From contig JAHEHU010000003.1 of the NCBI GenBank assembly GCA_024639765.1, forward strand, positions 1-64,000: a stretch of DNA of 64,000 bases. Reading direction: 5' to 3'. This DNA is from Eudoraea sp. (GTDB lineage: Bacteria; Bacteroidota; Bacteroidia; Flavobacteriales; Flavobacteriaceae). Within the stretch, counting starts at the first letter, position 1. Each line of letters starts with the position of its first letter. A program made the position numbers and the translations under genes. Shown one piece after another: positions 2,945-9,810 of the stretch. The notes under the pieces were generated by a model, which saw only the letters and a list, made by a program, of their open reading frames with translations, did no database searches and was not told the DNA's origin.

Positions 2945-3700
2945 TTATTCTAACCATAACTTAAAGTCGCGTACTCGCTCCCTACTTACGATGATTTCCT
3001 GGTCTGAAGTCTTGTTTAACTTGATCTGAAGTCTTGAATTGGTATAGGAAATGATGTCTTTTATGTGGTTGACATTGACAAAGAATTTCCTGCTTACCCT
3101 AAAGAATATTTTAGGGGTTAGTTCCGTTTCCAAATGCTCGAGTGTGGTATCTAGCAGGTACGATCTTCCGTCTATGGTTGCCGCATAGGTACCCTTATTT
3201 TCACTGTAAAAACATTCAACATCATCTGCATGGATGATCTTAAGGTGCTGCCCTACCCTAACCGTGAATCTTTTTTTGTATTCTCTCTCCACAGGATTGA
3301 CAAGCAACTTTTTTATATCCTCAAAATCGATGGCCAGTTTAGGAAGCGTTGTATTTTGAGATTTGAATTGATTGACGGCCTTTTCTAGTTCATCCTCATC
3401 AATGGGTTTTAGCAAATAATCTACGCTATTCAATTTAAAGGCCTGTAAGGCGTATTCGTCAAAAGCAGTTGTGAAGATGATGGCACTCTTTATCTCCAGT
3501 ACCTCAAAGATTTCAAAAGAGAGTCCGTCTGATAGTTGAATATCCAAAAAAATAAGATCGGGATGGGGATTGTTCTGGAACCATTCTATAGACTCTTCTA
3601 CAGAATGAAGAATATTGGATGCCTTTACCCCAAGGGTCTCTAACATTCTTGCTAATCTACGAGCGGCGGGTTTTTCATCTTCTATGATAAGTACATTCAT
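2945..3700 (-). CDS. LytTR-family response regulator
   Basis: REC domain (VLIIEDEKPAARRL...PDLIFLDIQLSDG...TAF..YALQAFKLNSVDYLLKP) plus LytTR C-terminus. Confidence 0.95.
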   Translation of the reverse strand: MNVLIIEDEKPAARRLARMLETLGVKASNILHSVEESIEWFQNNPHPDLIFLDIQLSDGLSFEIFEVLEIKSAIIFTTAFDEYALQAFKLNSVDYLLKPIDEDELEKAVNQFKSQNTTLPKLAIDFEDIKKLLVNPVEREYKKRFTVRVGQHLKIIHADDVECFYSENKGTYAATIDGRSYLLDTTLEHLETELTPKIFFRVSRKFFVNVNHIKDIISYTNSRLQIKLNKTSDQEIIVSRERVRDFKLWLE

Positions 3701-3745: not shown

Positions 3746-4093
3746 CTATAAGGAATTCTCCTTTCCATATTCTTCCTTCAGAAACTTCTTTAACTGTCGT
3801 TCTTCCCAGTCCTTTATGATGCCAATGGTAGGTCTAAATGCACAAATCCCATGAATGAGAAGCCCTATTCCCCATAGAATTGGTATACCAAGAACGTTCC
3901 AAAAAAGCCAGAAGACAACATCCATATTTCCCCCAGCATTATTTGTTTCCAGGAAGTCTACCCCGCGCAGACCAAAATAAACAATCAGTATGTTTACAAC
4001 AAAATAGACGGTAAGATGGCGATAAAACCGCTTTATTTTGTAGACACGTTTCTGGGCTTTTTTATAAGCCGATAATTTTATTTCTTCCATCAT
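3746..4093 (-). CDS. 2TM domain-containing protein
   Basis: A-KKAQKRVYKIKRFYRHLTVY ... WGIGLLIHG ... WEERQLKKFLKEE motif shared with neighbours. Confidence 0.9.
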   Translation of the reverse strand: MMEEIKLSAYKKAQKRVYKIKRFYRHLTVYFVVNILIVYFGLRGVDFLETNNAGGNMDVVFWLFWNVLGIPILWGIGLLIHGICAFRPTIGIIKDWEERQLKKFLKEEYGKENSL

Positions 4094-4416
4094 TACTTGT
4101 ATTTTTCGGCATCGCGTTTATCTTTTTCAATGTATTTTTTAATCTGTTTCTCCTCCCAGTTCTTTCCCAATATAGGATTGTAGTTAAATACCTTTGCTGC
4201 ATGAAAAGCAAGTCCTATTCCCCAAAAAAATGGGGTGAAAAAAGTACCTATTTGCCAAAAAGTATCCCCATCGCCTAAAGCGCGAATCAGGATATTCACT
4301 ATTATGAAAGAATTGATAATAATGTACACTGTTAAATGGATATAAAAGCCTTTGAGCTCTTCCACCCTTTTTTTCGCCTTTTTTAACTTCTCGTTCTCTA
4401 TCTCTTGAAACTCCAT
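4093..4416 (-). CDS. 2TM domain-containing protein
   Basis: KKAKKRVEELKGFYIHLTVY ... WGIGLAFHA ... NPILGKNWEEKQIKKYIEKD. Confidence 0.9.
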   Translation of the reverse strand: MEFQEIENEKLKKAKKRVEELKGFYIHLTVYIIINSFIIVNILIRALGDGDTFWQIGTFFTPFFWGIGLAFHAAKVFNYNPILGKNWEEKQIKKYIEKDKRDAEKYK

Positions 4417-4438: not shown

Positions 4439-4741
4439 TTATTCCCAACGTTTTATCTCGTCCTCGTCTTTCATCAATTCTTTGATCTTGCGCTCTTCCC
4501 AGGCTCGTCCAAAAAATGGGTTTAGATCAAAGGTGCCGATTGCGTGGAAAACAATGCCGATCCCCCAACCAAAGGCGGCCCAAAGGAACCACATGTAACG
4601 CCATTCATTTGTTAGGTAATTAATTACTGCCAAAGCTGAAATAACAATGACATAGGAAGTTAGATTACTGTAAAATTTCTTAATTCGTTCCACACGCTCC
4701 CTAGCCCGCAGGTATTTGTTCTCTTTACTGAAGTCTTCCAT
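4439..4741 (-). CDS. 2TM domain-containing protein
   Basis: RARERVERIKKFYSNLTSY ... WGIGIVFHAIGTFDLNPFFGRAWEERKIKELM. Confidence 0.9.
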   Translation of the reverse strand: MEDFSKENKYLRARERVERIKKFYSNLTSYVIVISALAVINYLTNEWRYMWFLWAAFGWGIGIVFHAIGTFDLNPFFGRAWEERKIKELMKDEDEIKRWE

Positions 4742-4892: not shown

Positions 4893-6215
4893 TTAATAAT
4901 CGTCTTTCTCCATAAATTCCTTTATTTTCCTTTCTTCCCAGGATTTACCCCACAAAGGATTGTAGCCATAGGCCTCCATGCCATGGGTAATAAGGCCAAA
5001 GCCCCAGCCAAGTGCCGGAAACACGACCCATGGAAAATCAGTGGTCCTATTATTAAGCCAAATCAGAAAGGGGATCACAATGCAGTAGGCTATTAGATTT
5101 CCGTAGAATCCTTTTATGGCCTCAACCCTTTCCTTTGCTTTCTGATACCGTTTGTCTTCTATAAATTCCTTTTGCGTTTCCATACTGCCTATTTGTTTTG
5201 TGAGCATCGGTAATTTCACACTGAATTCTGATGCCGTTCTGTTAATACTTACATTCCTGTTGGATAAGATGGAGTAACGTTGCTGAATATTGCGTAACCC
5301 TACCCCGCTGCTTCTTTTTACCACCTGCTTTTCCTGAAGATTATTACTCACCACCAGGCAACCATCTTCTTCATATACTTTTATTTTCAATGGCTTTTCT
5401 GAGGTGATCACATTGTGTTTAACAGCATTTTCCAAAAGCAATTGCAAGGAAAGCGGAACGATCCTGGCATCCGCATTACTGCATGTTTCTGGTATATCGA
5501 ATACTATACTGTCCTCAAATCTCATAGCCAATAATTTTATATAGGTCCGGGCAAAATCAAATTCCTCATTTACCAGCACAAGATCTTTGTTCTTTTGTTC
5601 CAGGACATAGCGGTACACTTTTGATAGCGCTGTTGTAAATCGTTGTGCCTGTATGGGATCTTCATCAATAAGACTTGTCAGCACATTTAAACTGTTGAAG
5701 AGAAAATGCGGGTCTAATTGATTTTTCAAGGCATCGAACTTGGCAGAGGCGGTCCCGGCAATGATCTTCTGTTCTTTAATTTTCGTGTCTTGCAGTGCTT
5801 TATAAAAATAAAAGGCATGAAAAAAAAGTGATGCTACCAGGGTAATGGCCAGGGCTGTCACATAATAATAAATCTTTTCATTGGCAATAAAATACTCAAA
5901 AGTGGCCCTGTAAATGATCACTTCTACAAACCATCTAACCAACCCAAATGCAATGACAGTGAATATAACAGAGCCAATAGCACCAAACCAAAGTCGTTGC
6001 TTCGCCTGAGTCTCCCAACTGTAACGCTTACTGGCGTATACATGGAAATAAGAACTTACGGCAGTTAGTACGAAACTGTATATGAATGTTATTCCAAACC
6101 TTTCTAATAATTCCGCGACCTTTACCTCATTCCCAAAGTTGATTATGAGGTTTAGCAGCACGATCCCAACAGTTATTAGAATGGAAACCTTGATTATTTT
6201 GCTTAGATCTTTCAT
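4893..6215 (-). CDS. LytS-type sensor histidine kinase with C-terminal 2TM domain
   Basis: 'LKNQLDPHFLFNSLNVLTSLI' phosphoacceptor motif, HATPase 'LLLENAVKHN', then KAKERVEAIKGFYGNL...GWGFGLITHGMEAYGYNPLWGKSWEERKIKEFM. Confidence 0.93.
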   Translation of the reverse strand: MKDLSKIIKVSILITVGIVLLNLIINFGNEVKVAELLERFGITFIYSFVLTAVSSYFHVYASKRYSWETQAKQRLWFGAIGSVIFTVIAFGLVRWFVEVIIYRATFEYFIANEKIYYYVTALAITLVASLFFHAFYFYKALQDTKIKEQKIIAGTASAKFDALKNQLDPHFLFNSLNVLTSLIDEDPIQAQRFTTALSKVYRYVLEQKNKDLVLVNEEFDFARTYIKLLAMRFEDSIVFDIPETCSNADARIVPLSLQLLLENAVKHNVITSEKPLKIKVYEEDGCLVVSNNLQEKQVVKRSSGVGLRNIQQRYSILSNRNVSINRTASEFSVKLPMLTKQIGSMETQKEFIEDKRYQKAKERVEAIKGFYGNLIAYCIVIPFLIWLNNRTTDFPWVVFPALGWGFGLITHGMEAYGYNPLWGKSWEERKIKEFMEKDDY

Positions 6216-7111: not shown

Positions 7112-7846
7112 TTAAAAAGTTTGCAGATGTTTCAGCAGTGCCTCTTTATAAGATTTACTTAAGGGGATGACCTTTCTATTGATCTCCACATGACTTTCGG
7201 CAACCACCTCTAGCCTGGTGATATTTACAATGTAGGATCTGTGCACTCGCACAAAATGTGAACCTGGAAGCTTATCCTCCATTACCTTTAAAGTAGCCGT
7301 TAATAAATAAGGCTGTTTAGCGGTCACAATATGACAATAGTTCCTATCTGCTTCTATGAATAATATATCCTCCAACAATAGCTTTACCATCTGACCATGG
7401 TGTCTGATGAAAATACGGTCGTTGAGGAATTCAACTAACTCCTCGTTCATAAATTCGTTTTTCTCCCTTTTTTTTATTTGTTCTTCCACCAGGGACAAGG
7501 TGCGATGCAGGTTGCGCATGTTGATGGGCTTAGCGATAAACGCGAACGGATGCGTTTTCTTAGCTCTTTCAAAGGAAGATTCATCATTATTCGCAGTTAT
7601 ATAAACAATGGGAATATCTGAATTAGCCTGGATAGAATAGGCAGTTTCAATTCCGTCAATACTGCCTTTCAGGTTGATGTCCATAAGCACTACATCTGGC
7701 GTATTCAGCTTTGCATGGACAATGGCATCCTCCCCCCTAGTTTCTATACCCGTGATCTCGTATCCTATTTTTGATAATTGCAGAGAAATGTTTGCTGCGA
7801 TGATCATATCATCTTCCACAATAAGGACTCGTATTTTAGATGCCAT
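7112..7846 (-). CDS. LytTR-family response regulator
   Basis: REC 'VLIVEDDMIIAANI...DVVLMDINLKGSIDGIETA' plus LytTR domain. Confidence 0.95.
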   Translation of the reverse strand: MASKIRVLIVEDDMIIAANISLQLSKIGYEITGIETRGEDAIVHAKLNTPDVVLMDINLKGSIDGIETAYSIQANSDIPIVYITANNDESSFERAKKTHPFAFIAKPINMRNLHRTLSLVEEQIKKREKNEFMNEELVEFLNDRIFIRHHGQMVKLLLEDILFIEADRNYCHIVTAKQPYLLTATLKVMEDKLPGSHFVRVHRSYIVNITRLEVVAESHVEINRKVIPLSKSYKEALLKHLQTF

Positions 7847-7848
7847 GT

Positions 7849-9810
7849 CTATGCAGCTTTAGTTAGTTGAAAATCAAAAGTAACTAGCGTACCCTTATCT
7901 ACAGATAAGTGCATAACCCCATCTAACTGAGCTGTGAGCAGTGCAATAAGCTGGGTGCCAAATCCTGTTCCGACCGACTCCTTTGACATGCTTTTTCCGA
8001 TGCCGTTATCAGAAACCTCCAGGTGCAACATGTTGTCTCGTTTTTGCAGACGAATGCATATCTTGCCCTCTGTAGTGCCTGGAAAGGCATATTTAAGCGC
8101 ATTAGACAGTAATTCATTGACAATAAGGCCAATGGGGATCGCATGGTCTATATCGACATGTATTACCTCCATATCGCACTCTATCACTATTCTTTTCTCC
8201 ATTCCGTATGTTTGGATGACATGATTCCCCAGGTTTTGAAAATAGTCCTTCATTTCTATATGTGACAAACTTCTCCCCTGATACAACTTCTGATGAATCA
8301 TACTCATGCTTTGAACCCGTTGCTGACTTTTGACCATTGCTTCACGAATCTTTGGATCGGTTATCTGATCTGACTGCAGGGACAACAAACTGGAAACGAT
8401 TTCCAGATTATTCTTCACCCTGTGATGTATCTCTTTGAGAAGGAATTCTTTTTCCTCATTTTGAATTTGAAGCAATTTGTTCTTCCTCCTGTTATTTCTT
8501 ACTGAGTTGAACAATAACAACAAGTACAGAAAAAGGAGTACAGATACAATAATTATCAAGGTCTGAACTGTTTTTTGTTTTTTGATCTGGCTCCCCTGAA
8601 GCAGAATGGTATTCTCTTTTTGTGCTACCTCAAATTCCGTTTGTATCTGGGACATTCGTTCCGCAGCTTCTGCTGTAAAAACTTCTTTCTTTAATTCGTC
8701 ATACACTTCAAAGGCTAAATATGCTTCTTTGTAATTATGGCTGCCTGCAAAGGCCCTCCCCAGATTTTGATATGCCTCACTTAAATAAAAGGCATCACCA
8801 AAATCCTCCGTAGCTACCTCAATACTATTTTGAAGACTCGTAATGGCCGAAAGGTACTTTCCCTGAAGGTTTTGCAATTTTCCTAATGACAACCATGCCC
8901 TCATGAGCATAAAATTATTATTTAATTGCTCACAATAGGATATTGCTTTCTGGGCCGCTTCTTCTGCTTTTGCATAGTTGTCTAATCTGCCGTAGAGATC
9001 GGCTAATGAGATATAAACATCGCTCAGGTTGTTGTAGAATCCGTATCGTTCCCCTATGGCAATGGAATGTTCAAAGTAGGTGCGTGCTTTTTCTAATTCT
9101 CCAAGCGCCAGATAGTTATTACCAACCACATATAAAGTAAAGTCATAGTCAAGATCGTTCATTCCTAAAGTTTCAAATAAAGACAAGGAAAGTAGTCCTT
9201 GCTCTAAACCTTTATCATATTTCTCTTGTTTCCAGAAAAGATTACTCAGATCGCTATGTGCAAGTGCTCTGGCGTGCAAGTCATTTAGCTGCTCCCCTAT
9301 TCGAAGTGATTTTAAGGCATAATCCGCTGCCCTGGTGAGATCACCCCGTCTCTCATGGACATATCCAAGTTGGGTATATAGAAAGGGCAGATCTTTTTGT
9401 TCTATATCGTTTTGTGCTAAAAGTAAGACGTTCTGCGCACTATCTAACTGCTCATTTCTGAGTAAAATAGCTCCTTGAGTGATCCTGAATCGGGCCAGCC
9501 ATTTTAAACAATCTTTGGAGGCAGCTTCACCTAAGCCAATTTTAGTGAATTCATACGCTTTTTTAAGATCGCGAGTATGCCAATAATATGCCAGATCATT
9601 AAGGATCAATAATTTGAGAGAATCAGTAGGTGCCTTAACGTAGGCTATTTGTAGTGTGTCCAGGTAAGAGGGTCCAAAATTATCTGTATCAACAAAGACC
9701 CTTTTGTAGGAATTTTCCTTATCAAAGTCTATAATTTGGGCCGTGGCAATAAACCCGTTCAATAAAGAAAAGAAGGTGATAGAAACGACTTTGAAAAGAC
9801 GAGTTCTCAT
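7849..9810 (-). CDS. TPR-containing sensor histidine kinase (HisKA_2 / HATPase)
   Basis: Multiple TPR units; 'LLKEIHHRVKNNLEIVSSLLSLQ' HisKA_2 box; 'LIVNELLSNALKYAF'. Confidence 0.93.
   Translation of the reverse strand: MRTRLFKVVSITFFSLLNGFIATAQIIDFDKENSYKRVFVDTDNFGPSYLDTLQIAYVKAPTDSLKLLILNDLAYYWHTRDLKKAYEFTKIGLGEAASKDCLKWLARFRITQGAILLRNEQLDSAQNVLLLAQNDIEQKDLPFLYTQLGYVHERRGDLTRAADYALKSLRIGEQLNDLHARALAHSDLSNLFWKQEKYDKGLEQGLLSLSLFETLGMNDLDYDFTLYVVGNNYLALGELEKARTYFEHSIAIGERYGFYNNLSDVYISLADLYGRLDNYAKAEEAAQKAISYCEQLNNNFMLMRAWLSLGKLQNLQGKYLSAITSLQNSIEVATEDFGDAFYLSEAYQNLGRAFAGSHNYKEAYLAFEVYDELKKEVFTAEAAERMSQIQTEFEVAQKENTILLQGSQIKKQKTVQTLIIIVSVLLFLYLLLLFNSVRNNRRKNKLLQIQNEEKEFLLKEIHHRVKNNLEIVSSLLSLQSDQITDPKIREAMVKSQQRVQSMSMIHQKLYQGRSLSHIEMKDYFQNLGNHVIQTYGMEKRIVIECDMEVIHVDIDHAIPIGLIVNELLSNALKYAFPGTTEGKICIRLQKRDNMLHLEVSDNGIGKSMSKESVGTGFGTQLIALLTAQLDGVMHLSVDKGTLVTFDFQLTKAA

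Follow-up and report, generated by a model that had tools for sequence, protein, structure and literature searches.

The minus strand of the window (the whole 64,000-nt stretch of Eudoraea sp. DNA analysed here) carries a histidine kinase gene whose single open frame continues into a C-terminal 2TM domain. Downstream of it on the same strand lie three genes encoding free-standing 2TM proteins, followed by a gene for a LytTR-type response regulator (Table 1). Pfam placed the His_kinase domain (PF06580) at residues 158-236 (1.5e-23) and the 2TM domain (PF13239) at residues 358-436 (1.2e-28), in the same frame and with no stop between them. The original prediction, made from the DNA letters, had described the open frame, its strand, its length (440 aa) and an internal ATG at 5183 (codon 345) exactly as they were found here. 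It had also described the three adjacent genes as free 2TM genes, and all three belonged to PF13239 (E 2e-19 to 4e-31).

Table 1. Coordinates of the kinase-2TM gene, its proposed second product and the downstream operon genes in the window
Feature	Position	Strand	Details or basis
Histidine kinase with C-terminal 2TM domain, full-length product	4893..6215	-	440 aa; PF06580 + PF13239, one open frame
Membrane region at the N-terminus (residues 1-140) with four predicted TM helices	5796..6215	-	AlphaFold2 and hydrophobic segments
His_kinase domain, phospho-acceptor motif DPHFLFNSLN (His170)	5508..5744	-	PF06580
Junction codons ACA AAA CAA ATA GGC AGT ATG GAA ACG CAA AAG, proposed initiation region	5169..5201	-	Synonymous A excess
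Internal ATG, codon 345, proposed start of free 2TM product	5181..5183	-	Met in 166/231 orthologues
Putative free 2TM protein of 96 aa, second product read in the kinase frame	4893..5183	-	PF13239 at 358-436
Free 2TM protein, first copy	4439..4741	-	PF13239, 4.3e-31
Free 2TM protein, second copy	4093..4416	-	PF13239, 4e-28
Free 2TM protein, third copy, 1-base overlap with second	3746..4093	-	PF13239, 2.4e-19
LytTR-type response regulator, last operon gene	2945..3700	-	PF00072 + PF04397

Architecture of the kinase and its operon

His170 was invariant across 87 aligned orthologues. An HATPase-like catalytic domain was recognised from the conserved N-box LLLENAVKHN and the conserved GVGLxNI motif; HATPase_c was absent from the Pfam output for the kinase at 1e-3. 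The closest fold to the kinase core was the GanS kinase domain (PDB 6swk, E 5e-8). LytS-type kinases usually, though not by definition, end after the ATPase domain, whereas this protein extends for approximately 100 further residues that contain the 2TM domain. We took it as a variant architecture of the LytS-type (PF06580) kinase.

In an AlphaFold2 model of the kinase-2TM protein, built with 87 orthologues (mean pLDDT 82.8, pTM 0.45), the N-terminal part formed four long helices that could span the membrane (2-25, 33-64, 71-101 and 115-164), with pLDDT mostly 86-96. The kinase core was followed by a low-confidence linker (342-351) and by helices 346-391, 398-415 and 426-439, the first two of which are the TM helices of the tail in this model. 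Among solved structures, the search for relatives of the 2TM domain gave chance matches only. Tethering of the kinase to the membrane at both ends, as originally suggested, is consistent with the model and the hydrophobic pattern.

The operon was complete in 197 of the 211 loci with enough downstream sequence to read it: the fused kinase comes first, then the free 2TM genes (between zero and seven, usually one to four), then the LytTR gene. This kinase-2TM / (2TM)n / LytTR operon occurs in most of the Flavobacteriaceae genomes sampled. As in LytTR two-component systems, the response regulator is encoded in the same operon as the kinase. Judged by gene content and order, the locus encodes a two-component system conserved in flavobacteria, in which a LytS-type kinase-2TM and a LytTR regulator are accompanied by several free 2TM proteins. 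A literature search, with many subscription journals outside its reach, returned nothing on PF13239 or on this operon.

Several further arrangements were observed. A second sensor pair is located nearby in the window (7112-9810, minus strand), in which a TPR-HisKA_2 kinase (7849-9810) is paired with another response regulator of the LytTR type (7112-7846). In one genome of the sister family introduced below, a 189-aa ORF resembling, by eye, isoprenylcysteine/phospholipid methyltransferases lies inside the 2TM operon (L272:3615-4184, plus strand), and four relatives in that family have a gap of similar size at its place. Additionally, two Flavobacteriaceae genomes encode a dihydrofolate reductase with a different 2TM protein fused to its N-terminus (L278:2787-3743, plus strand, and L279:2285-3223, minus strand; Pfam DHFR_1 3e-56 and 1e-62, respectively). 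The window genome has a second 2TM locus (G000:C186; L004:685-1089), directly followed by an overlapping ORF (1062-1580) that by eye looks like a dihydrofolate reductase.

Distribution and age of the fusion

The kinase and the 2TM domain were fused in all 231 distinct orthologues, which came from Flavobacteriaceae and a sister family within the same order, and in the seven of seven genus members with a whole gene. The named records of the main family, Flavobacteriaceae, included Maribacter, Allomuricauda, Aquimarina, Winogradskyella, Flavobacterium and others, and 311 of 400 family genomes matched the fused kinase at E<=1e-30. Among the matches listed, most span the fused kinase end to end and one only contains an internal stop, an in-frame TAG in an otherwise full-length match from one family genome (G080:C1:1979313-1980617, within L251). 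Among the genomes sampled, no fusion was seen outside Flavobacteriaceae and the sister family.

The kinase had been expected to end after its KLPML sequence. This is where 25 related kinases from other families do end: all are unfused and stop within a few residues of the LPxL motif, at the point where the tail begins in the fused protein. Moreover, in another family a free 2TM gene lies directly upstream of an unfused LytS-type kinase gene and a LytTR gene (L092:3-1860, minus strand), which may resemble the arrangement before fusion, although the genes stand in reverse order. The orthologue alignment called for in the original prediction thus found separate kinase and 2TM ORFs elsewhere, and the fused form is the rule in two families; from this distribution, the fusion is ancient. 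In a tree of 2TM domains five label changes were counted, with too few columns to decide between a single and a multiple origin of the fused domain.

Because the fusion is universal among the orthologues of two families and absent from related kinases elsewhere, it is neither recent nor an assembly error, and its presence in every orthologue examined in both families excludes chance. The proposed origin by loss of a stop codon therefore holds as ancient history only and fails as a recent event. A recent stop-codon loss in the window genome, or an assembly or sequencing error there, would account for the unusual domain order and for nothing else; with the same architecture in all genus members that have the whole gene and in 231 distinct orthologues, and with nearly all matches listed lacking stops, its probability is negligible, and the orthologue-wide fusion rules it out.

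The internal Met and its codon context

Translation from the internal ATG would yield a 96-aa 2TM protein, comparable in size to the free 2TM proteins encoded next to it (100-115 aa), in agreement with the predicted match in length. The predicted alignment with the free 2TM start codons was near rather than exact: the internal Met lies 15 residues before a conserved Ala, compared with a mode of 12 for free 2TM proteins, and is thus slightly upstream of their usual start. Met occupied this position in 166 of the 231 distinct orthologues (72%), with V, L, I, R, A, K and more in the others. Among the Met-bearing orthologues is that of Flavobacterium silvisoli (L225), which reads KQIAYMETQ at the junction. 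Its state required 29 changes on the tree, indicating repeated loss. As an amino acid, it was conserved no better than its neighbours E, T and Q (59-70%, first set), which, taken alone, would argue against a conserved start.

Both the position and the modest conservation of the Met would suit an ordinary ancient fusion with a single product, in which the Met is the leftover start of a once-free 2TM gene, kept by inertia in the linker. Also in keeping with this history, the fusion is universal in two families, and related kinases outside them stop where the tail begins. However, inertia does not predict that the strongest A bias of the gene is found at the junction only while the Met is present, which is the pattern that emerged from synonymous codons.

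Specifically, in an A-shift test the synonymous-codon A content around the Met was compared with each gene's own codon usage. In Met-bearing orthologues no other part of the gene was as strongly A-shifted as the junction (z=17, first of 437 windows), whereas in Met-lacking orthologues this shift was absent (z=1.6, rank 47) and the true gene start ranked first; these z-scores pool related genes and are hence inflated in size. The result was the same in a smaller, non-redundant set of orthologues. Among other Met columns with partial conservation, only column -8 showed an A shift, and its window overlaps the junction. In 29 phylogenetically independent pairs, Met-bearing genes lay above Met-lacking genes by 1.08 on average (median Wilcoxon p=6e-4, range 6e-7 to 0.04), and four control Met columns gave p values of 0.19-0.83 in the same test. 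The dichotomised form of the independent-pair test was weak (5.8 vs 1.2, median p 0.18).

Individual codons followed the same trend. Lys(-5) was encoded by AAA in 138 of 147 Met-bearing genes (94%; background 70%) and in 13 of 23 Met-lacking genes (57%); for Gln(-4), CAA was used in 114/124 (92%; background 68%) and 12/32 (38%), respectively. Within the genus, the junction reads ACT AAA CAA ATA GGA ACT ATG in one gene, compared with ACT AAG CAG ATA GGG ACT GTG in a species without the ATG. The G+C content was slightly higher in Met-lacking genes (0.395 vs 0.354), the yardstick of the test being each gene's own codon usage. By these comparisons, synonymous sites are selected for an initiation-like context that is present only with the internal Met. 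As in a dual-product gene, an in-frame start codon lies at the domain boundary, with an initiation context under selection.

The context itself resembles that of genuine starts. Ribosome profiling of F. johnsoniae showed that A at -3, -6, -12 and -13, together with weak structure, favours initiation, with no Shine-Dalgarno pairing (PMC6847099), and the features of the junction match these. The free 2TM genes of the same operons, which also served as the positive control, were used to train a start model. Against a score of -6.19 for other internal Mets, Met-bearing junctions reached 6.94, real free-2TM starts 6.53 and Met-lacking junctions 2.75. Position 5183 of the window reached the 99.9th percentile of internal Mets and outscored the start codons of the three adjacent free 2TM genes. 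The mean folding energy was -3.8 for Met-bearing junctions, compared with -7.7 for Met-lacking junctions and -9.3 for other Mets.

An A-rich, weakly folded stretch at a domain boundary could also serve another role, either as weakly structured mRNA that allows stepwise domain folding or as an internal promoter for the downstream genes. Such a role seems very improbable, given that the signal depends on the presence of the Met. For the promoter in particular, a flavobacterial -7 box (TAnnTTTG) was found upstream of the junction in 4% of Met-bearing genes, with no enrichment relative to the rest of the gene, and this candidate was rejected.

The number of free 2TM genes varied with the state of the junction. 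At least three free 2TM genes were present in 54 of 57 complete operons without the Met, compared with 49 of 140 with it (Fisher 1e-15, phylogeny ignored). In independent pairs, the association of Met loss with free-2TM number was 5.9 vs 0.1 on well-supported branches (median p 0.03) and 12 vs 5 pairs over all branches. Conversely, of the 94 operons with at most two free 2TM genes, 91 had ATG at the junction site, and the remaining three had possible internal starts, namely a shifted ATG in an A-rich context (two operons) or GTG (one operon). All six operons without any free 2TM gene carried the Met. This pattern would be expected if the internal start supplied a 2TM protein that extra genes can replace; as part of the link is phylogenetic, it is supporting rather than decisive. 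That Met-lacking operons nearly always have at least three free 2TM genes is likewise not predicted by inertia, and we consider a fusion with a single product unlikely. Descent of a free 2TM gene from the fused domain was also considered as the correlate of Met loss. The first tree pointed to it, as did the first 102 loci (p=0.004), whereas 211 loci gave p=0.32, and this candidate was dropped: the number of free 2TM genes, not their descent from the fused domain, correlates with Met loss.

A probable two-product gene and its relation to known systems

Taken together, the comparative data suggest that one gene gives two products, the full kinase-2TM and a separate 2TM protein of 96 aa with the same sequence as the kinase tail (probability about 0.72), and initiation at the internal ATG is itself likely to occur. 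Of the two possibilities raised in the original prediction, a second product gained support from the Met-linked synonymous selection, the start-like context and the restriction of losses almost entirely to operons rich in free 2TM genes; the Met proved not to be invariant. The same prediction was to fall if orthologues were always fused and lacked a conserved Met. They are always fused (231/231), and the Met is retained in 72%, its initiation context being lost together with it.

Under the two-product reading, some ribosomes would start at 6215 and produce the full kinase-2TM, and others would start at 5183 and produce the free 2TM protein. The 2TM domains may associate in the membrane, with free copies joining the kinase's own tail, a weaker step of the scheme. 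A bound free 2TM might then tune the oligomeric state or activity of the kinase before the signal passes to LytTR. We regard as tentative the proposal that free 2TM proteins, both internally initiated and encoded by the downstream genes, join the tail and act on the kinase in this way. In operons that gained extra free 2TM genes, the internal start would have become dispensable and decayed. Chances appear evenly balanced that the internally initiated copy is a kinase subunit or regulator repeatedly exchanged, across the Flavobacteriaceae, for subunits from tandem genes, so that the 2TM supply rather than the gene layout is kept.

Since flavobacteria do without Shine-Dalgarno pairing, the junction offers a natural test of A-rich, Kozak-like initiation rules inside a coding sequence, with many evolutionary losses of the start and a ready experimental host (Flavobacterium). 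The 2TM family, in turn, would gain a concrete setting as part of a multi-subunit membrane sensor.

Internal in-frame starts giving regulatory C-terminal fragments are already known for a few bacterial and phage proteins. CheA is a histidine kinase whose gene has an internal start; CheA short retains the kinase but not the phosphotransfer site, whereas the proposed 2TM product would lack the whole kinase. No report of an internal start giving a regulatory C-terminal fragment in a LytS-type kinase was found in the literature. In the type III secretion pod protein SctQ/Spa33, an internal in-frame start yields a copy of the C-terminal domain that assembles with the full-length protein (PMC8211105). 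In the phage endolysin CTP1L, it yields a free C-terminal domain that complexes with and controls the full-length enzyme, and a synonymously recoded gene made far less of the short product (PMC4777826). The assembly of these C-terminal domains with their full-length proteins parallels the proposed joining of free 2TM to the kinase tail. Unlike the window gene, however, SctQ/Spa33 belongs to a different family with a soluble SPOA domain, neither a membrane domain nor a signalling kinase, and CTP1L is a phage lytic enzyme with a putative Shine-Dalgarno sequence at its internal start, a signal not used by flavobacteria.

By Pfam score, the kinase tail and its three free neighbours exceed the curated 2TM cut-off by a wide margin (69-107 bits for these four domains vs 24.8 bits), as PF13239 proteins do. 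What sets the locus apart is that the domain is joined to a kinase and recurs several times within a single operon. With LytS/LytTR systems the locus shares the kinase core, the invariant PHFLFNSLN histidine motif and the adjacent LytTR regulator. It differs from them in the 2TM domain after the ATPase domain, the free 2TM genes in the operon and the probable internal start. The locus can be described as a LytS/LytTR variant whose kinase carries a 2TM domain at its C-terminus and, as codon choice and operon comparison indicate, a probable internal start.
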